Below, piece after piece: positions 12,340 to 59,675 of a stretch of DNA of 64,000 bases. Origin of the DNA: Mycobacterium paragordonae (lineage in GTDB: Bacteria; Actinomycetota; Actinomycetes; Mycobacteriales; Mycobacteriaceae); the NCBI RefSeq assembly GCF_003614435.1, contig NZ_CP025546.1, positions 5,332,001 through 5,396,000 of the forward strand. Direction: 5' to 3'. Under the pieces are notes generated by a model. It worked only from the letters and a program-made list of their open reading frames with translations. It had not been told where the DNA came from and searched no databases. How positions within the stretch are numbered: the stretch's first letter is position 1; every line of letters starts with the position of its first letter. A program made the translations under genes and the position numbers.

Positions 12340-12340
12340 G

Positions 12341-42468: not shown

Positions 42469-42474
42469 GCGCCA

Positions 42475-42600
42475 GTGAGCCAATCCGGCCTGACGGGACG
42501 GGCGCTTCCCCGGTCCGAGTCGACAGGGGCGTTCGTGGGCGAGACGAGCGCGATGGCGATCCGACCAGCACACCCGGCAGCGATGGTGCAGGACGGATGA
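42475..42600 (+). CDS. Possible leaderless small ORF coupled to the P450
   Basis: 41 codons from GTG 42475 (MSQSGLTGRALPRSE and onward) to a TGA that overlaps the P450 ATG (ATGA at 42597-42600). The -10 element sits 6 bases upstream. The P450 itself has only a weak AGGA, so reinitiation from this ORF could drive its translation. An ORF this short arises by chance in GC-rich DNA, and I see no domain. Confidence 0.35.
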   Translation: MSQSGLTGRALPRSESTGAFVGETSAMAIRPAHPAAMVQDG

Positions 42601-43952
42601 AAGTGCCGCATTCGGAGTCCGAAATCCCCACGGCGCCAAAACGATTGCCGCTGCTAGGGCACGCTCATCTGGTTGCCGGCGACCCGCGTAAGTTCCTGAT
42701 GGCACTGCCCGAGTTGGGTCCCATTGTTCGTGTCTACCTGGGTCCGCGGCCCGCATACGTGCTGACCACTCCGGACCTCATCCGGCAGGTGGCTCTCGGT
42801 CATGCCGGGGCCTTTCACCGTGAAGAATTGCGAGAAGCCATCAGCGACCTGGTTACCGGGTCGACCAACGTGCTCAGCGGCGCCGAGCACGACCTGCGCC
42901 GGCGAATGATCGCGCCGGTGTTCCGGCAGGGCCGCCTGACCGAGTATGCGGGGACCGTCGCCACGCTGGCCGACGACTGGTCGATGTCCCTGCCCGGCGG
43001 CCGGTCTGCGGACTTGCGGCCGCAGGTGCACGACCTGGTCATGCGCACCATGTTCGCGACGCTGTTCCAAGCCGATTCCGAAGCCGACGAGGTCACCTTC
43101 ATCCGCGAGCGGATCCCCTGGCTGCTCGGCGAGGTCATCATCCGCGGCGCTCTGCCCAAGCCGATCCGCCGCCTGCGGGTGTTCACCAACCGCCGATATG
43201 TTCGCCAGGCCAACGAGGTTCGGGCTGCGATGACTTCGTTGATCGAGCGGCACCGGCGCGACGACGATCGTGGTGACATGCTTTCGGAGCTTCTGCGCCA
43301 CGTCGACCAGGAGACCGGGGCCACACTTTCCGACAACGACCTCGTCGATGAACTACTACTGGCGCTCGCGGCCGGCATCGGCTCGCAGTCGTCGATCTTC
43401 TCGTGGTTGATCTACGAAACGGCACGCAATCCCGAAATCGCTTCCCGGGTCTACGCAGAACTGGATTCGGTGATCGGGCCCGGGCCGGTCACGGCGTCGC
43501 ACGTGGGCTCGTTGCCGTACCTGCGCAACGTTCTGCTCGAGACGCTGCGCCTCTGGGCGCCGTGGGTCACACTGCTCACGTCCGACGGCCCCGTCCGCAT
43601 CGGTGACACGACCTTCCCGGACAACACCAACATCCTGTTCAGCGCCCTGATGGTGCACCACCAAGAGCGCTACTTTCCGGACGCCTCGACATTCGACCCG
43701 GACAGGTGGGCGGGCGACGGGGGTGACCGTCAGGCGATGATGCCCTTCGGCTTGGGGCAACGCCATTGTCCAGGAAGACAATTCGCGTCCCTCTCGATCA
43801 CGTTACAGGCCGCGGCGTTGTTCTCACGATGGCGGGTGACGTTCCCCGAGAACTTCAGAGTGAAGGTGCAGGGCAGGGACTTCGTGCTGTCGCCCGCCTC
43901 GTTGCCGGTGGTGCTGACGACTCGACGGCCCGGCGACGGGTCGGAGTCCTAG
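42597..43952 (+). CDS. Cytochrome P450
   Basis: A 451-residue P450. Haem-binding FGLGQRHCPGRQ with C391, EXXR as ETLR at 315-318, and PERF-like DPDRW. The I helix reads AAGIGSQSS where AGxDTT is usual, so both the acid and Thr of proton delivery are changed. It may hydroxylate or oxidise the product of the convergent eight-gene cluster. No ferredoxin is encoded nearby. Its TAG and the glycosyltransferase stop share the palindrome CTAG (43949-43952). Confidence 0.92.
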   Translation: MKVPHSESEIPTAPKRLPLLGHAHLVAGDPRKFLMALPELGPIVRVYLGPRPAYVLTTPDLIRQVALGHAGAFHREELREAISDLVTGSTNVLSGAEHDLRRRMIAPVFRQGRLTEYAGTVATLADDWSMSLPGGRSADLRPQVHDLVMRTMFATLFQADSEADEVTFIRERIPWLLGEVIIRGALPKPIRRLRVFTNRRYVRQANEVRAAMTSLIERHRRDDDRGDMLSELLRHVDQETGATLSDNDLVDELLLALAAGIGSQSSIFSWLIYETARNPEIASRVYAELDSVIGPGPVTASHVGSLPYLRNVLLETLRLWAPWVTLLTSDGPVRIGDTTFPDNTNILFSALMVHHQERYFPDASTFDPDRWAGDGGDRQAMMPFGLGQRHCPGRQFASLSITLQAAALFSRWRVTFPENFRVKVQGRDFVLSPASLPVVLTTRRPGDGSES

Positions 43953-45232
43953 CCGGCGGCGGTCTTCTCGACTATGTCACAGACGCGCGGCACACCGTCA
44001 CCCGTCGCGCGCAACGTAGCGCCGAGAGCCGCAGCGCGAGAACGGGTGTCGGTTTCCAGCAGGGTATCGATCCCGCGACTGAGCGTCTCGGCACGAAGTT
44101 TCGTGAAGGGCACGTGGGCGCCGACACCGAGCCGCTCGACCTGATGCCCCCAGAGCGGCTGGTCGAAGGAGACGGAGCAGACCAGGGTCGGCAGGTCGGC
44201 GCGGAGGCTCTCGAACAGGGTGCCGATACCGCCGTGGTGTACCGCCGCCTTGCAGTGCGGGAAGATCAAATCGTGTGCCAGGGCGTCGACGATCTTGACG
44301 GCCGGGCCGGTGCGCAGCCTGTCTCTGTCGACATCGGCGCCACCGACGCTGATCAGCGCACGCTGGCCGGTACGGTCGCAGATCTGCTCGATGAGGCCGA
44401 TCACCGAGTGAAAGTCCTGTATGGGCATGCTGCCGAAACCGAAGAAGATGGGTGGAACCCCGTCGTCCGCCCACCGCAGCACCTCGGTGTGCTGATCGGC
44501 CAGCTCTCCGATCGCCTCGCGCACCGAACGCGGCAGCCAGAGGAAACCGACGAACGGGCGGCCCGATCCCCACTCCTGCGCCAGTCCGGGGACCAGCGCT
44601 GAATCGTACATCTGCAGCTCAGGGACATTCCGTTGCGCGAGATGCGATTCGGTACTCGCCTTGGACGGCGGCAGATTCAGCTTCGCGCGCAGGTCGTTCA
44701 GGTACTTGCGGAAGACCAGCGTGCGCAACCGCTCCCCCACGGCCCAGGAGGCCCGGTAGGCGGCCCCCGGCAGCGGCCACCGATGTGGCAGCGAACCCGG
44801 TGGCGCGTAAAAGCTGTTCTTGCGACACGGGTAGGTATGCAGCGTGACCATGGGGATGTCGCGAGCTTCGGCCAGCACCACCGACCGGTCCTCGCTGAAC
44901 GTCGTGCAGACGATCATCTCGGCACCACTCGAGATGTCGATGAGCTCGTCGTCCATTCGGTCGGCGTAGTCCGCCATCTGTTTGGCCACCATGGACACCA
45001 GCTTGAAAGCGTTGCCGGTCGCCAGCGCCCGTTGTCCCTGCGGCGACGAATAGAGCGCGTGTACGTCAGGACCGAACTGGCGGGCCGTCAAGCCGGCCCG
45101 CTCCACGAAATCGACGAAGTTGGGCGGTGCGCCGACCACGACCGTGTGGCCGCGTCGTTCCAGCTCGAGGCCCAGCGCCACGCCCGGCTGAACATCGCCC
45201 CGGCTACCGACGAGAGGGATGAGAATATGCAC
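43949..45232 (-). CDS. GT1-family glycosyltransferase
   Basis: A 427-residue GT-B glycosyltransferase of the MGT/sterol glucosyltransferase type: IPLVGSRGDVQPGVALGLEL at the N-terminus and AAVHHGGIGTLFESL, the nucleotide-sugar site, in the C-terminal half. FGFGSMP lies before it. It resembles enzymes that glycosylate glycopeptidolipids or phenolic and sterol-like acceptors. GTG 45232 has AAAGG upstream. It is last in the eight-gene operon, 28 bases after the UbiA stop. Likely role: transfer of a sugar to the prenylated lipid. Confidence 0.92.
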   Translation of the reverse strand: MHILIPLVGSRGDVQPGVALGLELERRGHTVVVGAPPNFVDFVERAGLTARQFGPDVHALYSSPQGQRALATGNAFKLVSMVAKQMADYADRMDDELIDISSGAEMIVCTTFSEDRSVVLAEARDIPMVTLHTYPCRKNSFYAPPGSLPHRWPLPGAAYRASWAVGERLRTLVFRKYLNDLRAKLNLPPSKASTESHLAQRNVPELQMYDSALVPGLAQEWGSGRPFVGFLWLPRSVREAIGELADQHTEVLRWADDGVPPIFFGFGSMPIQDFHSVIGLIEQICDRTGQRALISVGGADVDRDRLRTGPAVKIVDALAHDLIFPHCKAAVHHGGIGTLFESLRADLPTLVCSVSFDQPLWGHQVERLGVGAHVPFTKLRAETLSRGIDTLLETDTRSRAAALGATLRATGDGVPRVCDIVEKTAAG

Positions 45233-45250
45233 GATGCACCTTTCTGGTGG

Positions 45251-45279
45251 TGTACGAGACCTAGTGATGTACGAGACCT
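45251..45279. repeat. Short direct repeat TGTACGAGACCT
   Basis: Two copies (45251-45262 and 45268-45279), period 17, span the gap between the glycosyltransferase start and the last codons of the UbiA gene. The repeat may have been made by a small duplication. Confidence 0.6.
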
Positions 45280-46169
45280 TGGCCGACGATCGCCAGGCAG
45301 AAGACGACGACGAAAACCGTTGGCCAGCTTTGGGGATGCTTATCCGCTTTGCCCCGGAAGAAGATCAATGCGGAGACGCAGGGCAGGATGCCGGCGGCCA
45401 GCGGCGCCCAGGCCAGCGGCCACCAGTGCTCCGCCCACCGCCACGGCGTGGTGACCGCCAACTCCAGGAGCACCGCGAGCATGCCCAACGCCCAGGCGAT
45501 CGTCGCACTGGCCGACTCGCCGATCAGCTGCGAGTAGGAGTGCGGGTCCCCCGCGTCGGCCCGCGAGGTCTTCCTGGCGAATTCCAGATGCAGGAAGGCG
45601 CTGGTGAACACCGCGGGCACGGCGAGCAGGCGGACACACGAGGCGCCACCGACACCGGGCTGGCCGACCATCACGAACCCGGTGGCCAGGAACTGCGCCG
45701 GGCAGACCATCGCGAGGTTGACGATCGGGTTGTCCCGCACCCACGCCACGTGCAATTCCGTCCACCACAGCGCCAGGCCGTAGCAGAGTGCGACGGCCAG
45801 CACGCCGGCCGACGGAAGCGAAACCGCCAGGCCCAGAAGCAAAGCCGTTGCGGCTGTGAGCACCATCGCCACCCGCAACTCGGCCGGGGTAATCCGGCCC
45901 TGGACCAAAGGACGGGTGGGATTGTGCACCCGGTCGTACTCGAGATCCTTCTGGTCGTCGACCATTCGCAGGAAGGCGCCGCCGGAGATCATCGCCAGGA
46001 CCCGCAACAAAGTGTCCCAGCTCGGGCGCCACGGGCCGGCGGAGTCAGTCACCACGGACGTCATGCTCTCGACCGCGACGACCCACAAAGTCAGGTAGAT
46101 CGGATAGATCGGGAGGTACCGCTCGACCAGAAACTGCCGGATTCCGCCGGTCCGCTCGAAGACCGTCAT
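45261..46169 (-). CDS. UbiA-family prenyltransferase
   Basis: A 302-residue polytopic membrane protein with seven or more helices. The first Asp-rich motif is VDDQKDLEYDRVHNPTRPL (UbiA ND..D..D..RPL type), for prenyl-diphosphate and Mg binding. The second canonical DxxxD is not evident. The corresponding loop reads RKTSRADAGDPHSYSQLIG. It transfers a prenyl group to an aromatic or lipid acceptor in the membrane. The ATG overlaps the AfsA-like stop, so it is coupled. No partner isoprenyl synthase is present locally. Confidence 0.88.
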   Translation of the reverse strand: MTVFERTGGIRQFLVERYLPIYPIYLTLWVVAVESMTSVVTDSAGPWRPSWDTLLRVLAMISGGAFLRMVDDQKDLEYDRVHNPTRPLVQGRITPAELRVAMVLTAATALLLGLAVSLPSAGVLAVALCYGLALWWTELHVAWVRDNPIVNLAMVCPAQFLATGFVMVGQPGVGGASCVRLLAVPAVFTSAFLHLEFARKTSRADAGDPHSYSQLIGESASATIAWALGMLAVLLELAVTTPWRWAEHWWPLAWAPLAAGILPCVSALIFFRGKADKHPQSWPTVFVVVFCLAIVGQGLVHH

Positions 46170-47119
46170 GCCGAAGGCGGCGAACCGTCATTGCCGTCGC
46201 CGGTGGTGAACGACAGCTCGACCGAAGCCCTCGTCTGACCGGACTGGGTCACCTCGGCCCGGAACGCCAGAGCGTCCTCAGCGACCGGTGCCACGGTGAC
46301 CGTGGTGGGGGCGTTCAACTCGGTGAAAGATTGGAAGTCACAACGCAACCGGGCCGGGCCCATGGTATTCGCGCTGCGCGATCCCATGAGCGCCAGTGAC
46401 AGTTGCCGACACGCCTCGATGATCAAACCGCCGGGCAGATGGTCGAGGGGGTGGTCGAAGATCGTGGGATGGCTGACATCCACCACGATGGGGGCGCTCG
46501 CCGCGCCGCCGGCAAGCGGGACCGGTGCGCCGATCACCACGTTCTCCGGACGGGTACGCCCGACGATCTGCGGATCGGCCGGGGACGGCTGCGGACCCGC
46601 GTCCCAGCTCGCGCCGGCACGGGCCCGAATGGCCTTCCACAAGGCGTTCGACATCCAGCCGAATGCTCCCGACAGTTCGAGAACCTTCTTTCCCTCGTGA
46701 ATCGCCACCCCCATCGCTTCCACCCCCTGCACGGGGCGGCCGGGACGCCGCCTGAACTCGCTGCGCACGGTGATGTCGAGCTCGAGATCCAGCACATGCG
46801 GCCCGCACTTCAGCGCGGCCGGATCGAGGAAAGACAGCTCGTAGTAGCTCACGGTGTGGCGCACGTCCAGAGGCAGGCCGTAGGAGACGTGACTCGCCGC
46901 AATGCTCGCCTGCCGGAATGCCTCGAGCACGAGTAGCGGGTCGTGATAGCCGCGCTGCAGGCCCAGCGTGTCGGTGTGAAAGCTGTGTCGGCGGGGCAGC
47001 TGCGCGTGACACAACCACGTCGAGGGAGTCGTGGCAACCGAGGTGAGAAGCACTTCCGCCACGGAGGATTTGTGCACCAGTTCGCGGGCCACGGTCTGAG
47101 AGTAATTGGCGCCGTTCAT
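46166..47119 (-). CDS. AfsA-type A-factor biosynthesis double-hotdog protein
   Basis: A 317-residue protein with the AfsA hallmarks in both halves. Half 1: VHKSSVAEVLLTS (15-27) and DPLLVLEAFRQA (60-71). Half 2: HPTIFDHPLDHLPGG (217-231) and IIEACRQ (233-239). AfsA condenses a beta-ketoacyl-ACP with dihydroxyacetone phosphate in gamma-butyrolactone signal synthesis. Here it sits with an ACP and an acyl-AMP ligase, so a similar ester or lactone-forming step is plausible. No butyrolactone receptor (ArpA-type TetR) is recognised in the cluster. The start is supported by a weak GGAAG upstream. Confidence 0.88.
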   Translation of the reverse strand: MNGANYSQTVARELVHKSSVAEVLLTSVATTPSTWLCHAQLPRRHSFHTDTLGLQRGYHDPLLVLEAFRQASIAASHVSYGLPLDVRHTVSYYELSFLDPAALKCGPHVLDLELDITVRSEFRRRPGRPVQGVEAMGVAIHEGKKVLELSGAFGWMSNALWKAIRARAGASWDAGPQPSPADPQIVGRTRPENVVIGAPVPLAGGAASAPIVVDVSHPTIFDHPLDHLPGGLIIEACRQLSLALMGSRSANTMGPARLRCDFQSFTELNAPTTVTVAPVAEDALAFRAEVTQSGQTRASVELSFTTGDGNDGSPPSA

Positions 47120-47133
47120 TTTTCACTTCTTCC

Positions 47134-47994
47134 CTAATGCCGGATCATGGGGAGGTAGGCCGATTCGAGCACGATGCGGTACCACGGGTCGACCGGGACG
47201 TCGTGTCTCTCGGCCCGGTCGATGGCCGCCAGCCACTCCGGCCCGGTCTTGGGCCGCTCCGTCGCGGCCACTACCTCGTTCGAGCGCAGTTGCTCCCAGA
47301 CCATGTCGTGCGCGACCTGCACGTCGCCACTGCGGCGCTCAACGCCGGATTCGATCTCGCCGGCCAGTTGCAGGGCCTCGGCCGAGACGTCGGGGGTGGC
47401 AGCGCACGCGGTGATGACGGCGCTGAGTTCGGGTTCGGGGAAGTAGATGCTGAGCTCACGCAGGACACCGTCCGGATCGTCGGGCGTATGAACCTGGTTA
47501 AGCAGGTACGTTCCGGAATCCAGCGCGTACCTCAGCTGACCGGGAACCCGTTGGGTCGGGTTGGCGGGTCCCTTGTCTCCGGTCAGACGTGCCGACACCG
47601 CAACGTTGTCGTCGGGATGGCCGACCAGTAGCACGACCGAGGGGCACATTCTGCCGAGCTGGTCGGCCAGTCGCCGCCGCTCGGGACTCGCACGGTGCCA
47701 GTCGAAGTACCACAGGGCACGTGCATGCAGGTGGGTGGTGACCACCGCGTGCGCTCCGACGATCCGATACCCGTGCTCGGTCAGCCAGGTCACCGACCGG
47801 CTCATTCCCCCGGTGACGGCCGCGTCGGGTTTGAGCAGCAGTAGCCCTGTGCGCCAGCCGAATTCATCGGGATCGAGGGACAGGCGCTCCAGCGCGTCGC
47901 GCGTCTCCAGAAAATAGGTGTCGGACTCGAACCTACTCGGACTCCGTCGGGGCGCCCGGGGCGGCGTCAGCATGTCAGCCTCGGCGTCGATCAT
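47134..47994 (-). CDS. NDK-fold protein
   Basis: A 286-residue protein. Residues about 48-185 match nucleoside diphosphate kinase: LLLLKPDAAVTGG (Lys55), PTQRVPGQLRYAL (Arg155) and NQVHTPDDPDGVLRELSIYF, in which His169 aligns with the phospho-His. A 45-residue N-terminal and a 100-residue C-terminal helical extension flank it. NDK is normally about 140 residues and a housekeeping enzyme. This is probably a specialised phosphoryl-transfer enzyme for a pathway intermediate. ATG 47994 has AGGAG 6 bases upstream and overlaps the previous stop. The longer open frame is a shadow. Confidence 0.8.
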   Translation of the reverse strand: MIDAEADMLTPPRAPRRSPSRFESDTYFLETRDALERLSLDPDEFGWRTGLLLLKPDAAVTGGMSRSVTWLTEHGYRIVGAHAVVTTHLHARALWYFDWHRASPERRRLADQLGRMCPSVVLLVGHPDDNVAVSARLTGDKGPANPTQRVPGQLRYALDSGTYLLNQVHTPDDPDGVLRELSIYFPEPELSAVITACAATPDVSAEALQLAGEIESGVERRSGDVQVAHDMVWEQLRSNEVVAATERPKTGPEWLAAIDRAERHDVPVDPWYRIVLESAYLPMIRH

Positions 47995-49073
47995 GCGTGA
48001 CTCCTCTCTCGTCGTAATTCCGCCAGCACGTCGGCAACCGATGGCCCCGGTCTGCCCAGATATCCTGTGCGCAAGCATGAGTCGAGGATCCGGCGGACGT
48101 AGCCGGCACCTGTCGGGGGTGGGATGATGCCGAGCCGGTCTCGGGTGTTCGAGCTGTCGAACTGCAGCCGGCGCACGAGGTAGCTGGCGTACAGGCTCCC
48201 GATCTTCTCGAAGTAGCCGCGCTCGATCTCGTCGAGCTGGTCCACGCTGAACGTGCTCGGCGGCACGAAGTCGGCGATCTGAAATGACGGATACTCGGCG
48301 AGGACGTCTGAAAGCGTGGACAACGACACGCATTTCGCGCCGACCGCATGAAAGGTGCGTCCGGCATTGTCGGGGAGCCGCTCGGCGGCGGTCGCGATGG
48401 TGTTGGCAACGTGCCCGACGGGCGACAGCGCCAAGGTGGCCACATAGTTTCCCGGCAGCGTTCGCAGCTTGCCTTCGACGATCAGTTTGAGCACCTGGTA
48501 GATGTGCTTGTGTTCCCGACTGTGACCGGTGCGGTGGTCTCCGGAGACGATGCCGGGCCGCACCACCGCCCACGGCGTCCCGGATGCCCGCACCAGCTGT
48601 TCGGCCCGGTGCTTGCTGCGCTCGTAGTCGTTCCCGAACCGTTGCCCGACGTAGAGTTGGTCCTCGCCGAACGTTCCGTTGAACTCGCCACAGACGTATG
48701 CGGTTCCTACGTAGAGAAATTCGGTGCCCCAGCGCCGTGCCAGCGCGAGCGCGTTCGCGGTACCCGCCACGTTCAGGTCGGTGTACCGCTGCTCGGGCAG
48801 GCCGAAGTCCGTTACCGCGGCACAGTGCACGATCGTCGACACCTGCGCGGCGAGTTCCCGCAGGGTGGTCTCGTCGAGCCCGAAGTCGGCCCGCCGGACG
48901 TCGCCGCGCAGCACCTGTGCGGGCCGGACCGGACGGCCGTTGTTGCCGACGATGTCGAACTTGTTGTGCACCATGGCCACAACGGGGTGGCTTCGCTCGA
49001 CCAGCCGGGCGACGACTTCCGAGCCGACGTGCCCGGCGGCCCCGGTGACGAGAAATGCCCGGCGCGCGTTCAT
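47991..49073 (-). CDS. Extended SDR / thioester-reductase-like protein
   Basis: A 360-residue NAD(P)-dependent protein. Rossmann motif VTGAAGHVG at 9-17, SDR catalytic YERSK, VRPGIVSGD, and VNVAGT-like LNVAGTANALALA. It resembles extended SDRs and the stand-alone NAD_binding_4 reductases that release fatty acyl-ACP as aldehyde. Given the ACP gene directly upstream, reduction of an ACP-bound acyl chain, or oxidation of an alcohol on the product, is plausible. Start overlaps the ACP stop. The substrate is unproven. Confidence 0.85.
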   Translation of the reverse strand: MNARRAFLVTGAAGHVGSEVVARLVERSHPVVAMVHNKFDIVGNNGRPVRPAQVLRGDVRRADFGLDETTLRELAAQVSTIVHCAAVTDFGLPEQRYTDLNVAGTANALALARRWGTEFLYVGTAYVCGEFNGTFGEDQLYVGQRFGNDYERSKHRAEQLVRASGTPWAVVRPGIVSGDHRTGHSREHKHIYQVLKLIVEGKLRTLPGNYVATLALSPVGHVANTIATAAERLPDNAGRTFHAVGAKCVSLSTLSDVLAEYPSFQIADFVPPSTFSVDQLDEIERGYFEKIGSLYASYLVRRLQFDSSNTRDRLGIIPPPTGAGYVRRILDSCLRTGYLGRPGPSVADVLAELRRERSHA

Positions 49074-49315
49074 CAGTGATCCTGTTGTCTTCGAACGAGA
49101 TCGACCAGGTCGCCCACCGTGCGCAGGCCGGCCAGCGTCTCCTGATCCAGCGGCGGCAGGGCGAAGGCTTGTTCGACGGCGATGCACAGCTCGAGCAGCC
49201 GCAGCGATGTGTAGCCGAGATCGTCCATCAAGGCGCCGTTCAAAGCCGGCTCGGCTATCGGGGCAGGAGCCAGGGCGGTCACCAGGGCCAGCACGTCGTC
49301 TTCGATTGCAGTCAT
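49073..49315 (-). CDS. Acyl carrier protein
   Basis: An 80-residue ACP. The phosphopantetheine site is DDLGYTSLRLLEL with the modified Ser in TSL (usually DSL). An acidic helical pattern surrounds it. Start ATG 49315 overlaps the ligase stop (ATGA), and its own stop overlaps the SDR start. It is probably the dedicated carrier loaded by the neighbouring acyl-AMP ligase and used by the AfsA-like and SDR enzymes. Confidence 0.88.
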   Translation of the reverse strand: MTAIEDDVLALVTALAPAPIAEPALNGALMDDLGYTSLRLLELCIAVEQAFALPPLDQETLAGLRTVGDLVDLVRRQQDH

Positions 49316-52300
49316 GGCGAACCCGCCGATTCGGTCGCCGGCCGCCCTGCTTTGGCCGCCGGTTGAGCACCGCCGCTGGACAGCAGGTCTCTCGCTTCGT
49401 CCAGTTCCAGGTAGGCATCCAGGTATCCGGCCATCCGCAGCCACTGGTAGCCGTACCTGAGGGTCTCCTGCCACTGTTGCCGCGAGGCGAACGACGACGG
49501 GAACATCTCGCCGCCAGTCGCGGACTGAACCTCGGACACGAAACGGTCGATTTCGGCCTTCGCATCCTGGGCTTCGTCCCAGTCGTGGACGGACAGACGC
49601 ATGAGCCGGCGAGCCGTCGCCGCCAGCCGGGGATGTTCCGGCACCAGCGTGTCGAGGTTTTCGATGAGCACGGGGTCACCGGGCAACGGTGTGACGCCCC
49701 ACGCGGTGGCCAGCATCCGGACGCCCATGCCGACGATCCGGCGTCCGCACAGCGAGACCACGGGCCACTGCCCGTCCTTGACCGCGCCGTCGAAGTCTTC
49801 CCGCGCGTTCTCCAGCACCATGTTGGCCAACACCAACGCGGCCGCACACTCCGCGAATGCCTTTGCTCTGAGCGGAGATCGAGCGATATCCCCATCGGGG
49901 GTGGCGCCGTTGATCGTGATCACCGGACGACCGGTGGAGGGCGCCGGGGTCAGCGGCCGGCTCGGGTCGCACATCGCGGCCACCGGCCTGATGGTCCCAG
50001 CGCCACGCCAGCCCAGTGCTATCAGCCCGTAGCGGGCGAACAAGGCGAGGTGCGCTCTGGCGGCACGGGTATCGGCGAGCGTCTCCCCGAACACCACCTG
50101 CCGCCATGATTCGGCGCACTCGCCGGAAAGCACGAACACATCTGTCTTGCCGCGGACGACATGTGTCGTGGACTTGATCGGCCAGGTGGTGACCCCGGGG
50201 ACACGCCGCAGGATCACCTTCGCCGGATCCAGGGTGGCGGTGAATGCTCCCAGTTCGGCCGAAAGCGCCAGTGCGCGAACGACGTAATCCCGGGCTGCAG
50301 TCGCCGCGGTTCGCCCGTACTCGAGGCTCAGGTACTCGTCGAGCCGGGACACCACGTCACGGTCACCACAGGAGCGCAGCCGGGCCACCTGCAGGGGAAG
50401 CCATTTGACCTCCACGTAGGTTTCGCCGCGTTCGGCGAGGAACCCCTTCACCGCCTGCGTCAAGCCTTCGGCGGCCCAGTGCGCTGCCTCGTCGTCGTGG
50501 TCGAGCAGGGCGAGAGCGGCGGCCTGGCGCAGACACTGCCCGGCCCGGCGACGCCACCAGATCGCCATCAGCTCAGTCAGTTCCGGGTAGGACACCACGT
50601 CTCGGAGTTCTCCGTACCGCGGCCCGACGTGCAGCACGGTACCCCGGAGAAATCGCTGGACCCGGTTGAGCACGTCCTCGGTGACCCCGCTCATCGATCC
50701 GGTGTCGGCAGCGCGCCGCACCCGCTGCAGCCGTTTGCGCACCTGGTCGTGCGACTGGACGCGGACTTCGACCCGGTGTCCGTCCAGGAAGAGGACTGTG
50801 GGCATGACCGCTTCGGTCCCGGCGCCGGGCACCAACAGGAGCAGGTCGATGTCGGAGCCGTCGTTGCCGAAGCCCTCGGCCAGCGACCCCTCGAAATGCA
50901 CCGTTGCGTCGTCAGGGATCACCGCCACGTCGCGGGCCCGCTCCAATAGCGAACGCACCTTCTCGAGGAGGGCCGGATCACGGTCCGGACCGGACATGGA
51001 CAGGAGTTCGGCGCCGACGAGGTTCCCCGCTCGCCACTGCTGCCACATGTGTGCCCGGCGGGGCTTGCCGCTCGACGTTCGCGACAGGCTGCCGGGCGGA
51101 ACCCCGATGAACCACATCAGTGGGTCCTCTCCGCACTGCGCCTGCACGGCAGTACGGGCGACGGCGATTTCGCCCGGCGTGGGCCCACGTTGACGCTGCT
51201 CGACGAACAGTGCGACCCCTGCCCGGCCGCCCTCGTTGACCGCGGCGGCAATCAGCCGGCTCGGTGCCAGGCCCAACGCGGCGGCTGCGGTGACGTCGAG
51301 GTCTTCGGCGAAGATGGTGCGGCCGTTGACTTTCAGGCTGGTTCCCATCCGGCCGAGCACGAACAGCCGACCGTCCAGGACGAACCCCGCGTCGCCCGTG
51401 TGCAGTTCACCGTCGATGCATTGTGTTGCGCTGTCCGGACTTCCGCGATATCCGGTGAACACCGACTGCCCGGACAGCACGATCTCCCCGAGCACCCCCG
51501 CTGCCACGTCCCCGCCCTGCTCGTCGGCGATCCGGACGTCGTGGCCCGCGATCGGTTCGCCGACCGATACCACCCAATCGGCACCGCATTCGGCTGCCGT
51601 GCAGTTGGAGGCGCTGGCCAGGACACGCACCGGTTGCCCCTGGCGCAGGGCGCACTTGTCGATTCGGACCATCCGGTGCGGTTCGGCCCTGCGGTGCGCG
51701 GTAGCCAGCAAGGCGTGTTCGGCGAGACCGTAGGACGGCACGAATGCAGTAGGCGAGAATCCCTGAGCGGCGGTCAATTCGGTGAAGGCTCTGAGGTGAT
51801 CCGGGTTGACCGGTTCGGCGCCCACCACCACCGTGCGCACCCGCGAAAGATCTATGCCCTCGATGTCCTTCGGCGTGAGTCGACGGCTGGCATAGGCGAG
51901 CCCGAACGAGGGCGAGGCCGTGTGTCGCGCTTCGGCCGCCGCCCGCAGCCAGCGAGCCGGGTCCCGGACGAACTGGTCGGGCCGCATCAGGTACAACACA
52001 CGTTGCCGGGTGACGGCCTGAAAGATTGCCCCGATCAATCCCATGTCGTGATACACCGGCAGCCACGAGGCGAAGGCGAGATCCGGCGTCGCTTCGAATG
52101 CCGCGTCGATGGCGGCCAGGTTCGTCGTCAGGTTGCGCCAGCTGATGCGCGCTCCACGGGGCAGGTGCGTGGAACCCGAAGTCATCTGCAGCAGCACGGT
52201 TGTCGCGGGAGGGGCCAGCTCGATCAGTGCCGGTGCTGCCGGCACCTCGTCGAGGACCAGCGCGGTCGGTGCGTGCGACATCTCGGCGGAAGCCCGCACC

Positions 52301-52695
52301 ACCGTGTCGACGAACGGCGACGAGGTGACCACCACATCGGCCTGCGAGCTCTCGAGGACTCCGCGCAGCCGCCGTCGGTACTGTTCGTCACTGCCGAAAA
52401 GCGGTGGCGCGATGGGGGTCAACGTTGCTCCCGCAGCCAGCACCGCGAACATCGTCGCCAGGCACAGATGAGACGTCGGCATCAGCACGCCCACGGTGTG
52501 CCCCGAGCGGACCCCCCGCTCGACGAGCAGATGTGCCACGCGCCGAACGTGTTGTGCCATCGTCGTATACGGAAGGAAGTCCCAGCTGCCTCCTCGATCC
52601 CCCTCGTCGGACGCCAGGTACACACCGGTGTCTTCGCTGGGTGAGTTCAGCCAGCCACGGATGCACTCGACATCGATCTCGTCCGGGTCACGCAT
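49312..52695 (-). CDS. Fusion of fatty acyl-AMP ligase and nucleotidyltransferase
   Basis: A 1127-residue protein in one frame. Residues about 1-575 are a FAAL-type adenylating enzyme: P-loop MTSGSTHLPRG (171-181), WLPVYHDMGLIG (211-222), SYGLAEHALLA, TGDAGF and the catalytic Lys in TSSGKPRR. From about 585 a pol-beta nucleotidyltransferase begins: FEGSLAEGFGNDGSDIDLL with the GS and DxD metal site near 602-615, then a helical (HEPN/KNTase-like) region to about 780. The last 340 residues are unassigned. FAAL activates a fatty acid for ACP loading. The NTase could transfer a nucleotide to the acyl product. The ATG overlaps the preceding gene by 8 bases. Confidence 0.88.
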   Translation of the reverse strand: MRDPDEIDVECIRGWLNSPSEDTGVYLASDEGDRGGSWDFLPYTTMAQHVRRVAHLLVERGVRSGHTVGVLMPTSHLCLATMFAVLAAGATLTPIAPPLFGSDEQYRRRLRGVLESSQADVVVTSSPFVDTVVRASAEMSHAPTALVLDEVPAAPALIELAPPATTVLLQMTSGSTHLPRGARISWRNLTTNLAAIDAAFEATPDLAFASWLPVYHDMGLIGAIFQAVTRQRVLYLMRPDQFVRDPARWLRAAAEARHTASPSFGLAYASRRLTPKDIEGIDLSRVRTVVVGAEPVNPDHLRAFTELTAAQGFSPTAFVPSYGLAEHALLATAHRRAEPHRMVRIDKCALRQGQPVRVLASASNCTAAECGADWVVSVGEPIAGHDVRIADEQGGDVAAGVLGEIVLSGQSVFTGYRGSPDSATQCIDGELHTGDAGFVLDGRLFVLGRMGTSLKVNGRTIFAEDLDVTAAAALGLAPSRLIAAAVNEGGRAGVALFVEQRQRGPTPGEIAVARTAVQAQCGEDPLMWFIGVPPGSLSRTSSGKPRRAHMWQQWRAGNLVGAELLSMSGPDRDPALLEKVRSLLERARDVAVIPDDATVHFEGSLAEGFGNDGSDIDLLLLVPGAGTEAVMPTVLFLDGHRVEVRVQSHDQVRKRLQRVRRAADTGSMSGVTEDVLNRVQRFLRGTVLHVGPRYGELRDVVSYPELTELMAIWWRRRAGQCLRQAAALALLDHDDEAAHWAAEGLTQAVKGFLAERGETYVEVKWLPLQVARLRSCGDRDVVSRLDEYLSLEYGRTAATAARDYVVRALALSAELGAFTATLDPAKVILRRVPGVTTWPIKSTTHVVRGKTDVFVLSGECAESWRQVVFGETLADTRAARAHLALFARYGLIALGWRGAGTIRPVAAMCDPSRPLTPAPSTGRPVITINGATPDGDIARSPLRAKAFAECAAALVLANMVLENAREDFDGAVKDGQWPVVSLCGRRIVGMGVRMLATAWGVTPLPGDPVLIENLDTLVPEHPRLAATARRLMRLSVHDWDEAQDAKAEIDRFVSEVQSATGGEMFPSSFASRQQWQETLRYGYQWLRMAGYLDAYLELDEARDLLSSGGAQPAAKAGRPATESAGSP

Positions 52696-55453
52696 CGGAT
52701 CTCGCTTGGTCCGGCTCGTCTTCCAGCAGGGTGATGCGACCGCGGGCACCGTCCACGCTGACGGTCATGCCGGTGCGGATCGCGCTGGTCAAACCGTCGA
52801 TCTGCACGACGGTCGGCACTCCCAGCTCGCGGGCGATGACCGCGACATGGGTGAGTGGCGATGCGCGTTCGATTAGCAGCGCGGATGCAAAGGGAAGTGC
52901 CGCCACCCACCCCGGATCGGTGCGATAGGCCACCAGGATGCCGCCGGAGAAGTCTTCCGGCTTCTCCACGACAACCGCGCGTCCGGTCACCAGCCCGGGA
53001 CTCGACGGCGTTCCCTTGAGCTGCGTCCCGGCAGGCGCCTGAGTCACTTCGTCGGACAGGCTCCATCCGGCTATCCGCAGCGCCTCCGGGGAAAAGTCGA
53101 CTCCGCTCGTGGTGAATCGGCCCGGCGCCTTGAACCTGCGGTACTCCCCCGCCAGGGCTTTGCGACGAGAGATTCTCTCCCGCAACACCGTTGGGACTAT
53201 CGAGTCCTGATACACCGCGAACAACTCGTCGAGCCGAAGCAGGAAGACGTCGCCGGCCTCGACGACGATGCCGCGCTGTTCGAGGTCGCGACCCATCACG
53301 GCGACAAGGGATTTCAGGAATCCGAAGCCTCGCGTTCGGCAGAATCGCAGATGCTCGCGATGCACGCCCGCTCGCTGGATCTTGGCGCGCAGCGCATCGA
53401 AGAGCTTCCGGCGCGGGCCGTGCAGGTGGGCGTCGAGGTAAGCCTGCGCGGATTCGCCGGCATCGCGTGTCTCCTGATTGGAAGCCATCCGCAGCATGTG
53501 GAAGATGCCGGACGGGTCCTGCCGCAGGTCGGGCGCCTCGAGTTTGAGTTCGTCGAGGCAGCGGTAGCCGAATCTGTCGATGTACGCGTCGATCTCGCTG
53601 CGCAGCTGTTGCCAGTGCGAGTCCCCGGCATCATCGGCGTGCTCGACGAGCAACGAGTAGGCCTTCTTCGGCTCCGCGGCTTCGATGAATTGCCACAGGT
53701 CCGCGTGATCGCGCGCGAACGCGGCGATGTCTGCGAGTGCACGCGCCGGTTCGATGGACACCAAGTCGGTCCCGGGGTTGAGGATGGCGAAGCCGAACCA
53801 CTCCGGCGCCCTGGGCAGGAAAATTTTCATGAGGGCGGCGAAGGCACCCACCAGCGTCAAGAGGATGGCGTCGAGAACCATTGTCGGACCCCAGATGTCT
53901 GCCACCTCGTCATGAATCTGCCGGAACAGCCGGTAGGCCTGCGGACCGTCGAGCTTGGACACATCCGTCAGTCCGTGACGGTCGACGAACCGCTCGAATG
54001 AGTTGTCGAATCCCGCAATCAGCGCCTCGACCGACCAGAGACGTCGGGCATAGGTGGTGGTGGTACGTGCTCGAGACAACCATTTGGCGAGCGGATTGGG
54101 AAATACGAAGGGCCGCAGGGTTTTCGCGATCTTGCGGTCGAGCGGCTCGCTGACGCCGAGGGCGACTTCCAGCACGCGACGGTTCAGCGGATACCCGGGC
54201 GCGATCCCCACCATGCGGTACCAGTGCAACAGGTTGTAGTACACGTGACCGTTGAACTGGCCCAGCATGACCGGTAGCCAGGACTCCATCTGCGCCACCT
54301 GCGCCCGCGGCACCCGCAGACTTCGCGCGTAGGCCCGGTAGACGTCGCCGTACAGCGTGCGGGCGGTGGTGAAGGTCAGCGGCGAGGTGACACCCGCGAA
54401 ACTCTCGATGATGTTCGAGTTGTCCCACAGCCGAAGCTCACCCGGCGGCACGTCTTCACCGAGATGTTCTGCGGCCAAGGTACTTTGGTCGATCGGTGTG
54501 GTGATCGGGCGGGATTGCAGAAGCCACGTGTTCGACTCGTCGGCAGCCCATTCGATGTCCTGGGGGGTACCGAAGTGGTGTTCCACTCGGGACGCCAGGT
54601 CGACGAGCGATGCCCGCAACTCTGGGCCGATGCTGCGATGCCGTTGTCGATCGACCGTGACACCCACCGTTCGGACACCCCCGTCGAGCGCGGTGACGAC
54701 CATCTCCTGCTTGGCGGCGACCTTTTCGTCGACCGTTTCGCCAGTGCGTTTATCGATCACGACGAAGTCCGAGTCGACGGCGCCTGAGACCAGACCCTCG
54801 CCCAGGCCCCAGACGCCGTTGATGACGATGCGGTCCGGTGAACCGGTCACCGGGTCGGCGGTGAACACGACGCCGCTGCTGCGGGGCTGTACCAGGCGCT
54901 GCAGGATGACGGCGAGTGCGACGTCGTCCAAGTCGGCGGGGTCCAGACCGCGCATGTGGCGATAGCGCACAGCCCGCTCCGAGAAGGCCGATGCCCAGCA
55001 TTGACGGACCGCGTCTTCGACCGCGGCGGGCCCGCTCACATTCAAGATGGTGTCGAACAGCCCAGCGAACGAATGGGCAGCGCCGTCCTCCCCCCGACCG
55101 GAGGACCGCACGGCAACGGTTGGGGTGCCCAGGTAGTCCAGCGCTGCGCCTATCGCGTCCGAAACTGCTGCCGGGACGGGCGACTCCCGCAGCAACAACG
55201 CCGCGTCCGCCGCCTCCCGCAGCCGTTCCGACAGCGACACCGGGCCGCCGCTCAACCGGACGCCGGCCGCCGCGGCGGCGGCGTCGAAGGCTTCGGTGCC
55301 CAGAACCGCCCAGCGCGGTACCGGGAATCCGGCGGCGGTGAGTCTGTGGAGGTTGTGGGCCTTGCCGCCCAGGGCAGCGGCGGTCCCGTCGCCGAGGGCT
55401 TCATCGGTGCGGAGAAACGGCATTCGCGAGCCGCGTAGCGAATCCGGGTTCAT
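52688..55453 (-). CDS. PEP-synthase / rifampin-phosphotransferase-like enzyme
   Basis: About 921 residues. The N-terminal ATP-grasp domain has GGKAHNLHRLTAAGFPVP, VAVRSSGRGEDG and VNGVWGLGEGLVSG. The long middle domain has little recognisable similarity. The C-terminal mobile domain has RASPLTHVAVIARELGVPTVV, with the phospho-His near 869. This order is that of PEP synthase and rifampin phosphotransferase. It likely uses ATP to phosphorylate a small alcohol or lipid via phosphohistidine. I chose ATG 55453 (MNPDSLRGS). ATG 55423 is possible, and the frame open to 55798 is probably leader. It begins the eight-gene operon. Confidence 0.85.
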   Translation of the reverse strand: MNPDSLRGSRMPFLRTDEALGDGTAAALGGKAHNLHRLTAAGFPVPRWAVLGTEAFDAAAAAAGVRLSGGPVSLSERLREAADAALLLRESPVPAAVSDAIGAALDYLGTPTVAVRSSGRGEDGAAHSFAGLFDTILNVSGPAAVEDAVRQCWASAFSERAVRYRHMRGLDPADLDDVALAVILQRLVQPRSSGVVFTADPVTGSPDRIVINGVWGLGEGLVSGAVDSDFVVIDKRTGETVDEKVAAKQEMVVTALDGGVRTVGVTVDRQRHRSIGPELRASLVDLASRVEHHFGTPQDIEWAADESNTWLLQSRPITTPIDQSTLAAEHLGEDVPPGELRLWDNSNIIESFAGVTSPLTFTTARTLYGDVYRAYARSLRVPRAQVAQMESWLPVMLGQFNGHVYYNLLHWYRMVGIAPGYPLNRRVLEVALGVSEPLDRKIAKTLRPFVFPNPLAKWLSRARTTTTYARRLWSVEALIAGFDNSFERFVDRHGLTDVSKLDGPQAYRLFRQIHDEVADIWGPTMVLDAILLTLVGAFAALMKIFLPRAPEWFGFAILNPGTDLVSIEPARALADIAAFARDHADLWQFIEAAEPKKAYSLLVEHADDAGDSHWQQLRSEIDAYIDRFGYRCLDELKLEAPDLRQDPSGIFHMLRMASNQETRDAGESAQAYLDAHLHGPRRKLFDALRAKIQRAGVHREHLRFCRTRGFGFLKSLVAVMGRDLEQRGIVVEAGDVFLLRLDELFAVYQDSIVPTVLRERISRRKALAGEYRRFKAPGRFTTSGVDFSPEALRIAGWSLSDEVTQAPAGTQLKGTPSSPGLVTGRAVVVEKPEDFSGGILVAYRTDPGWVAALPFASALLIERASPLTHVAVIARELGVPTVVQIDGLTSAIRTGMTVSVDGARGRITLLEDEPDQARSDA

Positions 55454-56153
55454 CTGTCCGCATTCGTGAACGACATGGGACCCCTCTGCGGAATGAGAAA
55501 TGACCGACTGCATTCCAGTCTCTGGTCCGTCCGCGGAGCGGGATTGAGTAGTGCGGTACTGCATCTCGGCAACATGCCGGGCAGGTCCGAACGGCGAAGG
55601 CGGCGGCTGCATATCGGGGCAGGCGTTCCCCCCGCGTTCGGATCGAGTACGACCTTCACCGGCGTACCTCCCTGTCACGCCTTTCTCGGGGCTTATTCGA
55701 CCACTCGACCGAACCCTGCGAAAGGGGCAGAAGTACCCATCATCGGGGAACTTCGTCATTGTCGAGGCGTTTCTGTCGCTCTTACTTTTGTAGCTCAACT
55801 AGGAATGTTCCGTAGCCTGCCAGACACGTCTTGCGAGATCCTTGGCGAATTCTTGGTGGATCCTTGCCTTTCGGGATACAGCGGTGAAAGCCAACTCACT
55901 GCACTGCCAAAGGATTCTGGGTCAGCGGGCACAGCTCGTACCCCGCCGGGCAACGAAAGGACTTTGCCTGAATCAACTACGGGCGACAGCTAGTGCCCAA
56001 TGTCCTTGCGCATCAGCGCGGCCGGCGCATAATCATGGGCAATCTTTGTGGGACAGGGTGATAACGACAGCATCGGTTGCTCGATCATGGTGGATGACGT
56101 AGTCAATGCCCAGGCGCGGTCAACGCCCGCGCCCGCCGCGTGGTGAACCCCGC
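55454..56153. other. Long divergent intergenic region
   Basis: About 700 bases between the operon start and mmpL, less GC-rich than the genes around it, with several stop-free but unsupported frames. Inverted segments occur (CCTTTC near 55677 with GAAAGG near 55720). I see no conserved gene. It should hold the promoters of both transcripts and possibly a small RNA or leader ORF. Confidence 0.5.
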
Positions 56154-59045
56154 GTGACTACCACGCTCGCCCGCGACCCCCGCACCGAACGGCCGGTGAT
56201 CGCGCGATTGATCCACACGCTCGCGGTGCCGATCATCCTCTTCTGGGTGGCAGTCGCCGTGCTGCTCAGTGTGTTTGTCCCGCCATTGGAAGTGGTGGGT
56301 CAAGAGCACGCGGTGTCGCTGAGCCCCGCGGATGCTCCGTCCTTTGTGGCTATGAAAACGATTGCACGGGCATTCGACGAGGGCACCACCGACAGTTCCG
56401 TGTCGCTCGTCCTGGAGGGTGACCGACCTCTGGGCGACGATGCCCACAAGTTCTACGACGAATTAATCCGCAGGCTGAGAGCCGACCGGACGCATGTCCT
56501 GAACGTGCAGGACTTCTGGGGGGATCCGCTCACCGCGGCCGGGGCTCTCAGCAATGACGGAAAAGCGGTGAGCGTGCAGGTGAATCTCGCCGGTGATCAG
56601 GGCGACCCGCGGGCCAACGAATCCGTCGAAGCGGTCCGCGCGATTGTGAACAAGCAACCGCCGCCGCCCGGGGTCAAGGTCTACGTGACCGGGATAGCGG
56701 CGCTCGCGGCGGATTTGCAGCACAGCGGCGACACTTCGATGGTCCGGATCACCGTCACCTCGATCGCGGTGATCGTGATCATGTTGCTGCTGGTCTACCG
56801 TTCGCTCGTCACCGTGACTCTGCTGCTGGTCACGGTCGGTTTCGGATTGCTCAGTGCTCGGGGTGCGGTCGCGTTGCTGGGACACAACGGCCTGTTCGGG
56901 CTCTCCACGTTCGCGGTCAGCCTGCTCACTTCACTGACCATCGCGGCCAGCACCGACTACGGCATCTTCATCATCGGCCGCTACCAGGAGGCCCGGCAAT
57001 CCGGTGAAGAACGGGAATCGGCCTTCTACACCGCATACCGCGGCACGGCTCATGTCATCCTCGGCTCGGGATTGACGATCGCCGGGGCCGTCTTTTGCCT
57101 CAGCTTCGCCCGGCTGCCCTACTTCAGGACCCTGGGACTGCCCTGCGCGATAGGGATGCTGGTCGCGGTGCTGGTCGCGCTGACGCTGGGGCCGGCGGTT
57201 CTCACGGTCGCCAGCCGGTTCGGCTACTTCGACCCGAAACGGCTGCTCAAAGTACGCGGCTGGCGGCGCATCGGCACCGCCGTGGTCCGTTGGCCACTGC
57301 CCATTCTCGCCGTCACACTGACCGTCGCCCTGATCGGCCTGCTCACCTTGCCCGGATACCGGGCCAACTACAGCGACCGGAATTATCTGCCTGACTTCGT
57401 TCCCGCCAACGCGGGTTTCATGGCGGCGGACCGCCATTTTCCCCAGGCCCGAATGAAGCCGGAAGTCTTAATGATCAAGACCGACCACGACGTGCGCAAT
57501 CCAGCCGACTTCCTCATTCTGGACAAACTGGCCAAGGGCATATTTCAAGTGCCGGGAATTTCCCGGGTCCAGACGATAACCCGGCCGGCAGGAACGACGA
57601 TGGAACACACGACGATACCGTTTTTGCTGAGCATGCAGAATGCCGGTTTGGCGGAGACCATGACGTTCCAACGCAAGCGGATGGACGACCTGCTGAAACA
57701 AGCCGACGAGATGGCCGAGACCGCGGCGCTGATGAGGCGGATGTATCAACTGATGACCCAACTCTCCGCGACCACCCACCGCATGGTGGGCGACACCGTT
57801 GAAATGCAACAGACCACGAAAGGGTTGCGCGACCGCCTCGCCGACTTCGACGACTTCTGGCGACCGCTTCGTAGCTATTTCTATTGGGAGAAGCACTGTT
57901 TCGACATTCCGATCTGTTGGTCGGCCAGATCCGTTTTCGACGCGCTGGACGGTCTCGACCAGATCGACGAGAAGCTGGACCGCCTCGTCGGTGACATCCG
58001 GCAGCTGGATGTATTGATGCCGCAAATGGTCGGGACATTTCCGCCGATGATCGATTCGATGGAGAGCATGCGCGTCATGGTGCTGAGCATGCACAGCACC
58101 ATGTCCGGAATCTTCGAGCAGATGGATGAGACGAGCGAGGATGCCACCGCCATGGGCCACGCATTCGACGCTGCCAAGAATGACGATTCGTTCTATCTGC
58201 CGCCGGAGGTGTTCAAGAACGCGGATTTCAAGCGTGCCATGAAGCTATTCATTTCCGCCGACGGGCATTCGGTTCGGTTCATTATTCTGCACCGGGGAGA
58301 TCCCGGATCGCCCGAGGGAATTGCCCGTGTCGATGCCATCAGAACGGCAGCGGAGGAGTCGCTCAAGGGCACGCCGCTGGAGGACTCCCAGATCTATCTG
58401 GCCGGCACCGCGGCCTTCTTCAAAGACATGTCCGACGGCGCCAGATGGGACCTGCTCATCGCGGGCATCTCGTCTCTCTGTCTGATCTTCGTCATCATGC
58501 TGCTCATCACCCGCGCCCTGGTGGCTGCCGCGGTCATCGTAGGTACGGTGGGCATTTCGCTGGGCGCCTCCTTCGGACTCTCGGTCCTGGTCTGGCAGCA
58601 TCTGCTCGGCATCGAACTGCATTGGCTCGTAGTCGCCATGTCCGTCATCGTCCTGCTGGCCGTGGGATCGGACTACAACCTGCTGCTGGTGTCCCGGTTC
58701 AAACAAGAAATCGGCGCCGGCGCCGGCCTCAATACCGCAATCATTCGTGCGATGGGTGGCACCGGCAAAGTCGTGACGAATGCGGGCCTGGTGTTCACGT
58801 TCACGATGGCCACCATGGTGGTCAGCGATGTGCGGGTGATCGGGCAGGTGGGCACCACGATCGGAATCGGGTTGCTGTTCGACACCCTGGTCGTCCGCGC
58901 GTTCATGATGCCGTCCATCGCCGCCCTGTTGGGACGCTGGTTCTGGTGGCCGATCCCGGTGCGTACCCGGGCGGCCGGCGCCGGTTCACGCCGGGCCCCC
59001 ATGCCGGGACAGGACCGTCTGGCTCGGCAGCTACCGAGTGGGTAG
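56154..59045 (+). CDS. MmpL-family RND lipid transporter
   Basis: A 963-residue MmpL protein. Two membrane bundles flank two periplasmic domains. [21 protein letters not shown] is the first helix. The proton-relay loops are [18 protein letters not shown] (first) and [17 protein letters not shown] (second), and [11 protein letters not shown] precedes the second bundle. MmpL proteins export lipids or siderophores to the cell envelope. No MmpS gene is adjacent. GTG 56154 ([15 protein letters not shown]) is favoured over the frame from 56106. It diverges from the biosynthetic operon and is its likely exporter. Its 3' end overlaps the next gene by 15 bases. Confidence 0.92.
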
Positions 59046-59675
59046 CGGCTGCGCGGACTGCGTCGCGGCCGCCAGCGTCCGGAACTGATCGGGCGTCCCG
59101 GCCCCGGTGATGGCGACCTGGGTGGGGCCCGCCGGGCTGGCGAGCCTGGTGGTCCACACCGGCTCGACCGCGCCGTTCTGGTCGGCACCCTGGTAGATCA
59201 CCCAACTCGTGCCGTTGACGTCTACCGTCCCGCTCGGATACATGCCGGAATGGATGGAGCCGACCAGTTTGTCCTCGTCGGCATTGCTCTGCGTCAGGCT
59301 CAGGTACATCCCGGTCGGGCTGATGAACCCGACGGTCGAGGTGGCCGCATGCAAACGCTGGCCGGCGGCTGCGTCCGTGCGTCCGGCGTCGATTCCGCCA
59401 CGCCCGCCGGAATTCGCCTGCCAGTCTGGTGGCAGTTGCGGCAACCGGATGGGGAATCCGAGGGTCGCGGCGTCTGCCCGCAGGGCCGCCGCGGCGTCAT
59501 ACGACGGAATCTTGCCCCGATTGGTCCCACCCGGTGCGATGGAGCACATCCCCACCATGCCCGCCAGCAGGATGCAGCCGATCACCAGAGGCAGCAGCGA
59601 CCAGAACATGTCGCGTCCGTCCTGCAGCAACCGCGGCTTGGCCGGCTTGGGGGCAGGCTGCGGCTCCGAGGTCAC
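59031..59675 (-). CDS. DUF4245 membrane protein (Rv1100-like)
   Basis: A 214-residue protein with one N-terminal membrane helix ([18 protein letters not shown]) and an extracytoplasmic DUF4245 domain ([36 protein letters not shown]). No enzymatic motif. GTG 59675 is chosen; the longer frame to 59732 has no ribosome site. Position before glpX matches Rv1100. It marks the return to conserved gene order after the inserted cluster. Confidence 0.85.

Follow-up and report, generated by a model that had tools for sequence, protein, structure and literature searches.

Gene content and layout of the locus

In the current study, we analyzed a stretch of 64,000 nucleotides of the Mycobacterium paragordonae genome (contig NZ_CP025546.1, positions 5,332,001 to 5,396,000; hereafter the window), which holds a candidate biosynthetic operon related to the salinipostin (spt) operon of Salinispora tropica. 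Eight minus-strand genes at 43949–55453 form an operon-like block, with a cytochrome P450 gene convergent to it and an MmpL gene divergent from it. A previous reading made from the DNA letters (the sequence-only reading) had listed the same genes, and a check of reading frames, starts and families places them where that reading did. The spt-block numbers (1–9) given below were assigned by position in the S. tropica block.

52688–55453, minus strand: phosphoenolpyruvate (PEP)-synthase-like phosphotransferase (PPS-like), start uncertain (55423 equally likely); homologue of spt-block gene 1
49312–52695, minus strand: fusion of a fatty acyl-AMP ligase (FAAL) with nucleotidyltransferase (NTase) and HEPN-like domains; homologues of spt-block genes 2 and 3
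49073–49315, minus strand: acyl carrier protein (ACP; Pfam PP-binding); homologue of spt-block gene 4
47991–49073, minus strand: extended short-chain dehydrogenase/reductase (SDR) of the thioester-reductase type (Pfam NAD_binding_4, 123.6 bits); homologue of spt-block gene 5
47134–47994, minus strand: nucleoside diphosphate kinase (NDK)-like phosphotransferase with a C-terminal extension (Pfam NDK, 40.3 bits); homologue of spt-block gene 6
46166–47119, minus strand: AfsA double-hotdog butyrolactone synthase (Pfam AfsA, 134 bits, two stretches); homologue of spt-block gene 9, presumably spt9
45261–46169, minus strand: UbiA-family membrane transferase (Pfam UbiA); homologue of spt-block gene 7
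43949–45232, minus strand: glycosyltransferase (GT), GT1/GT28-like (Pfam GT28-N/EryCIII-C)
42597–43952, plus strand: accessory cytochrome P450 (Pfam p450, 188 bits), convergent with the GT gene
56106–59045, plus strand: MmpL-family transporter (Pfam MMPL and NCBIfam), divergent

In line with the single operon-like block proposed earlier, five of the seven junctions overlap by 1–8 bases and two are gaps (from the PPS-like gene to GT: overlaps of 8, 4, 1 and 4 bases, a gap of 14, an overlap of 4 and a gap of 28). The 3' end of the P450 gene overlaps the GT end by 4 bases, while the MmpL gene, on the opposite strand, has its start 652 bases upstream of that of the PPS-like gene. The repetition of this gene order in other mycobacteria indicates that the locus is not a chance grouping.

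The catalytic residues of the core are almost invariant across the aligned loci. For the PPS-like protein, which comprises an ATP-grasp, a middle region and a phospho-His domain, Pfam recognizes only PPDK_N and PEP-utilizers (E 0.01), and the C-terminal PEP-binding barrel of PEP synthase was not found. The combination of ATP-grasp and phospho-His domains without a detected PEP barrel is shared with rifampin phosphotransferase and the RedH-PigC ligases, whereas the PPS-like protein falls in a clade of its own, with PRK06241.2-2 (named PEP synthase; 892 bits vs a cut-off of 883) as its best NCBIfam match. Its best solved relatives are PDB 5fbs and 5hv1 (E 1.2e-79), deposited as 'phosphoenolpyruvate synthase', which we take to have rifampin phosphotransferase activity. 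The phospho-accepting His of the swivel domain is present in 90 of 91 rows, with one gap. The FAAL half matches Pfam AMP-binding, and the NTase domain scores below the Pfam cut-off (18.9 vs 21 bits) but is backed by its fold, that of enzymes adenylylating small molecules. It carries the GS...SDxD motif and the third carboxylate of small-molecule nucleotidyltransferases (ANT/KNTase); Ser622, Ser632 and Glu661 occur in 89/92 rows (three gaps), and D61, D63 and E89 are invariant across the 34 rows of alignment A11. Likewise conserved are the attachment Ser of the ACP (76/76 rows), the Thr/Tyr/Lys of the SDR (92/92) and the haem Cys of the P450 (47/47 aligned rows).

The NDK-like protein resembles NDKs of the PDB (E 5.9e-11) and keeps the Lys in 90/90 rows, and the Asn, the active-site His and R152 each in 89/90 (one gap); T135 is less well kept (82/90). 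Its score against the NCBIfam NDK equivalog is 36.5 bits where the cut-off is 155, and it is thus not an ordinary NDK. UbiA has the superfamily fold and the first Asp-rich motif (DDQKDLEYD), and is nearest to DGGGP synthase by both sequence and fold. The second DxxxD motif, typical of UbiA prenyltransferases, is replaced by ExxRK...SYS, with E196 and K200 in 89/89 rows. The prenylation suggested by the sequence-only reading is therefore doubtful, as this UbiA, without the motif, need not carry a prenyl group. The GT, 71–79% identical in the other mycobacterial clusters that have one, has GtfA/GtfB and sterol 3-beta-glucosyltransferase as nearest solved relatives.

Kinship with the spt operon of Salinispora tropica

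Comparison with other Actinomycetota led to a locus (L091, in genome G446) of nine contiguous genes at 2479–13573, spanning 11,095 bp with the chosen starts, in the order PPS, FAAL, NTase, ACP, SDR, NDK, UbiA, F420-type luciferase-like oxidoreductase, AfsA. The same genome encodes a chlorinase identical at 283/283 positions to PDB 2q6i, which we take to be SalL of S. tropica, with a KS-AT-ACP-condensation megasynthase close by. PMC7888443, citing Amos 2017, tabulates spt, the cluster for salinipostins in S. tropica, with nine tags (RS20900-RS20940) and a length of 11.1 kb. Because the nine genes and 11,095 bp fit the nine tags and 11.1 kb, in a genome with the S. tropica chlorinase, this comparison identifies L091 as the spt operon of S. 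tropica, and the core of the window is homologous to it by sequence.

The S. tropica block has counterparts of seven window genes, which cover eight functions; gene order agrees as far as NDK, and AfsA and UbiA are then swapped. Amino acid identities are 43.8% for PPS, 36.3% for FAAL, 40.6% for NTase, 42.5% for ACP, 43.7% for SDR, 37.3% for NDK, 32.0% for UbiA and 29.9% for AfsA. In both organisms these genes are packed tightly on one strand and the catalytic residues are common to both. On the other hand, FAAL and NTase are separate genes in S. tropica and fused in the window; S. tropica has the F420-type reductase, missing from the window, as gene 8 and AfsA last; and P450 and GT, both added in the window, have no homologue within the 19.9 kb examined in S. 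tropica.

The pathway had been described as undescribed, a view that does not hold for the core, which corresponds gene for gene to an operon assigned to the salinipostins; the counter-finding named by the sequence-only reading, a cluster with an assigned product, thus holds for the core, although not for the extension by P450 and GT. Activation on an ACP, a butyrolactone-type step and phosphoryl transfer, all part of the earlier scheme, agree with an spt-like core.

Insertion, distribution and exchangeable genes

The insertion between Rv1101c- and Rv1100-like genes (names of the sequence-only reading) is borne out by the nearest relatives, in which the site is free of the cluster.

41195–42358: AI-2E transporter (Pfam), the Rv1101c-like neighbour
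42389–59023 (16,635 bp): inserted block, from blastn of the nearest relative (G006) against the window
59031–59732: DUF4245 gene (Pfam), the Rv1100-like neighbour

By blastn, collinearity of the window with its nearest relative breaks off after 42388 and resumes at 59024. At this site the relative instead has about 760 bp, in which Pfam recognizes a dienelactone-hydrolase-like gene (37.4 bits vs a cut-off of 21). Of this gene (L206:13440-14240) only about the last 45 bases, at ~42344–42388 as judged by eye, are left in the window. Nearly the whole MmpL gene is inside the block, its last bases overlapping the right junction. The nearest relatives of the Rv1100-like gene are 94, 86, 80 and 78% identical, all with the Rv1101c-like gene adjoining; among 17 same-genus loci, that gene lies within 1.5 kb in 10 and was not seen in seven, and the two flanking genes are a true neighbour pair, in keeping with the sequence-only reading. 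Among the tree rows, the cluster has its nearest homologue in M. canariasense, with just 67% identity across four concatenated proteins, whereas the flanking gene matches that of a cluster-free relative at 94%; the block was therefore gained. The 12 mycobacterial rows, the window among them, form one group in a tree from a quick search without a mixture model, in which long branches meet and which was used solely for this grouping. Most simply, the block would have been acquired horizontally from another mycobacterium, the MmpL gene arriving with it.

Within the genus, AfsA matches at E 0.001 occur in 15 of 248 genomes and strong ones (<1e-80) in eight, our own genome counted. The sequence-only reading had proposed looking for AfsA, FAAL-NTase and UbiA together in mycobacteria, and they co-occur in all seven other strong-AfsA genomes; PPS, FAAL-NTase, ACP, SDR, NDK, AfsA and UbiA are all present there in the same order. 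GT and P450 accompany them in six of the seven; the seventh (G032, a 19,990-base contig) has neither within the 3.4 kb remaining past UbiA. Gene junctions in the other mycobacterial clusters are likewise mostly 4-base overlaps, and the core genes and GT are kept at 48–79% identity.

For the wider comparison, the best 80 of 106 named relatives were taken (50 Nocardia, 14 Streptomyces, 10 Mycobacterium/Mycolicibacterium and one bin grouping with them, two Antrihabitans, and one each of Gordonia, Tsukamurella and Rhodococcus), which with S. tropica gives 81 loci. They were chosen by their SDR (S. tropica by its NDK-like protein), hence the presence of SDR is no finding. Six core genes (PPS, NTase, searched with FAAL-NTase, SDR, NDK, AfsA and UbiA) occur together in 77/81 loci, S. 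tropica among them; the exceptions are L127 and L166 and the two short loci L151 and L181. The NTase part is present in 82/82 loci searched, with the C-terminal portion alone in the best segment of six. In L127 (Nocardia mexicana) and L166 (Antrihabitans cavernicola), FAAL-NTase, ACP and SDR stand together with no NDK, AfsA or UbiA within the locus, perhaps a sister pathway using the same loading unit for another purpose.

The genes around this core vary by genus. With at least 6 kb available past UbiA, both P450 and GT are present in 9/10 named mycobacterial loci, 16/41 Nocardia loci and 1/1 each of Antrihabitans, Gordonia and Tsukamurella, and the pair is found in 0/13 Streptomyces, 0/1 Rhodococcus and 0/1 Salinispora; these counts depend on 10-kb flanks and on the thresholds used (45% and 40% identity, half of the query). 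Three further mycobacterial loci outside the 9/10 count (L017, L023 and L027) have both genes. M. rhodesiae DSM 44223 (L109) is one of the mycobacteria with the cluster. P450 occurs without GT in eight Nocardia loci, and GT never without P450 (28/28 GT-bearing loci having 6 kb downstream), which fits the prediction of hydroxylation followed by glycosylation. A nitroreductase homologue lies between AfsA and UbiA in 31/50 Nocardia loci and is present in 13/14 Streptomyces loci, in 12 of them after UbiA, whereas no reductase homologue of either the S. tropica or the Nocardia type occurs in the 10 named mycobacterial loci. As the reductase type varies among homologous clusters, gene 8 was not counted as defining for spt-type clusters.

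The clusters of Nocardia, Gordonia, Tsukamurella and Antrihabitans share with the window FAAL and NTase homologues, the ACP and partly the same P450 and GT, while the order and strand of P450 and GT vary. The Streptomyces clusters share PPS, NTase, SDR, NDK, AfsA and UbiA in 13/14 loci, with no such FAAL, ACP, GT or P450 found beside the core. Cyclophostin and the cyclipostins are Streptomyces products according to PMC11095149, and these Streptomyces clusters may be their source.

The NDK profile matches at E 0.001 in 31/298 genomes of the order and 44/346 of the phylum, many of these matches being weak and to the NDK domain alone. In the surroundings of 13 NDK-matching genomes, most of the core is present in four (L087, L088, L091 and L098), PPS and NDK only in one (L089), and an NDK-like gene with no core in eight. 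In L089 (G513, of the same family as our genome) the PPS and NDK homologues adjoin, with no other core gene within 20 kb. NDK-like proteins of this family also occur apart from any spt-like cluster in L090, L092, L093, L094, L095 and L097; three such genes lie within 16 kb in the genome of L095 (G251), separated by weak SDR and NTase homologues.

No MmpL homologue (E 1e-5) was found in the flanks examined of 91 other loci with all or most of the cluster, a set in which six loci duplicate contigs already counted. The MmpL is not conserved with the cluster, and the export role given to it earlier is unsupported. One mycobacterial locus (L030, G228) has a second, distant AfsA (31% identical) beside an MmpL homologue (36.5%), with no other cluster gene. 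Besides, in 9/11 mycobacterial loci compared (L102-L129) PPS is directly preceded by a small SRPBCC/polyketide-cyclase-like gene; one member scores below the Pfam cut-off and another above it (L017:4270-4779), and it has no homologue among the predicted genes of the window.

Proposed product and alternative explanations

Based on these likenesses, we propose, with a probability of roughly 0.78, that the window holds a salinipostin-type (spt-like) biosynthetic operon extended by P450 and GT and acquired horizontally. An spt-type butenolide phosphate ester is quite likely to be its product, and our best reading of that product is a hydroxylated and glycosylated phosphate-ester butenolide of the salinipostin/cyclipostin type. 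In the scheme we envisage, AfsA would condense a beta-ketoacyl thioester with dihydroxyacetone phosphate (DHAP) to a butenolide phosphate. The FAAL half would adenylate a long-chain fatty acid and load it on the ACP, the thioester-reductase-like SDR would free the bound chain as a fatty alcohol, and the PPS-like enzyme would phosphorylate this alcohol via its His. The NDK-like enzyme might then convert either the lipid or the butenolide from monophosphate to diphosphate, with UbiA coupling the two halves to a phosphodiester as diphosphate leaves. The NTase could nucleotidylate the phosphorus and thereby allow ring closure by the enol to the cyclic phosphotriester, and the P450 would hydroxylate the molecule before the GT glycosylates it. 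This particular order, taken from the protein families, is tentative and has the odds against it.

Several observations weigh against this proposal. The substrate of each phosphotransferase is guessed from family resemblance, and the NDK-site arginine R133 is kept in 74/90 rows only. AfsA and UbiA have low identity to Salinispora (30–32%), and no UbiA is known to us that takes a saturated alkyl diphosphate as substrate. Neither the S. tropica nor the Nocardia reductase has a homologue anywhere in the window (E 1e-3); without an spt8-type reductase the product may remain a butenolide and may fail to cyclise. FAAL and ACP are absent beside the cluster in 14/14 Streptomyces loci (one, L181, begins inside the cluster and lacks the upstream part), and their role in a common chemistry is thus not fixed. 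P450 and GT are patchy, with both in 16/41 Nocardia loci and P450 alone in eight, and on the tree the distribution of GT requires 10 changes (at a laxer match threshold and with limited flanks). Finally, no product of any mycobacterial cluster is known to us. From the lack of a reductase in the mycobacterial clusters, we would expect that they borrow one from elsewhere or that their product remains unsaturated.

The UbiA step may run in either of two directions, which can be distinguished by where the phosphorus originates. In the reversed one, the alkyl phosphate would act as nucleophile on an allylic butenolide-methyl diphosphate, the donor, which the NDK-like enzyme would supply. The product class would be the same and the phosphorus would come from ATP, not from DHAP; decaprenyl phosphate attacking phosphoribosyl pyrophosphate in decaprenyl-phosphate phosphoribosyltransferase is comparable. 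We regard this direction as possible, with the odds against it. A comparably speculative proposal is that the locus makes a new mycobacterial lipid class of hydroxylated, glycosylated cyclipostin/salinipostin-like phosphotriesters, with UbiA coupling an allylic butenolide-methyl diphosphate to an alkyl phosphate that is not isoprenoid, the bond being formed at phosphorus.

It is unlikely that the product is instead a new class of structural envelope lipid, i.e., a glycosylated phospho-butenolide lipid flipped by the MmpL, and not a secreted effector. FAAL, MmpL and GT are typical of mycobacterial envelope-lipid loci, the MmpL gene lies inside the inserted block, and a PapA-family acyltransferase gene adjoins the cluster in M. 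canariasense (L102:16243-17490). However, a PapA-like gene is present in just one of 11 mycobacterial loci compared, plus L017, no homologue of the window MmpL stands beside other clusters, and the core is common to Streptomyces and Salinispora, which have no mycomembrane.

Less probable still is a plain gamma-butyrolactone autoregulator of the A-factor type, with the phosphotransferases merely salvaging or activating substrates and GT and P450 inactivating the signal. The AfsA double-hotdog protein is common to A-factor/ScbA clusters, and its score lies on the edge of the ScbA/BarX equivalog NF041195 (198.4 bits vs a cut-off of 200), as does that of S. tropica AfsA (195.2 bits, likewise below). 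Kudo et al. are said to have stated in 2020 that spt also yields free butyrolactones. Yet no TetR match occurs among the window genes scanned (29.6–63.9 kb, where some open reading frame calls are poor), and several conserved extra enzymes with intact active sites would go unexplained. Compared with A-factor/ScbA clusters, the phosphotransferases, UbiA, NTase and FAAL are additional. Canonical clusters have a TetR-type receptor beside AfsA, according to PMC5735094. That the block has decayed or is silent, yielding no product, is very improbable, for despite its insertion where the nearest relatives have another gene, all eight genes are open, neither the overlaps nor the active-site residues are damaged, and other mycobacteria maintain the core genes and GT.

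Our comparison of 81 loci separates a six-gene core from swappable FAAL/ACP, reductase and P450 plus GT, and indicates residues to test for the salinipostin-type pathway proposed here. How bacteria construct a cyclic phosphotriester is not known to have been solved. No report of a mycobacterial spt-like cluster is among the matches listed in open-licence PMC papers; within that literature, and as far as the searches let us say, the novelty lies in the mycobacterial variant carrying P450 and GT, in how it came to be inserted and in the separation of a core from swappable genes. According to PMC6681047, synthetic cyclipostin analogues target the mycobacterial antigen 85 complex and TesA. A homologous pathway in mycobacteria themselves raises the testable question of self-protection or a role in the lipid metabolism of the carrier. 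If a new glycosylated phosphotriester class were made, it would belong to compounds whose synthetic analogues inhibit mycobacterial serine hydrolases, and the sugar could serve self-protection.

In the flanks, Pfam also names GlpX and fumarase genes, and a Rieske ring-hydroxylating oxygenase gene lies at 38747–40141, near the Rv1101c-like gene. Further away, at 3834–6590 and 6708–9470, the window has two adjacent glycine-rich genes (43–44% Gly, GC ~0.78) with PE-like N-termini, presumably PE_PGRS-like.

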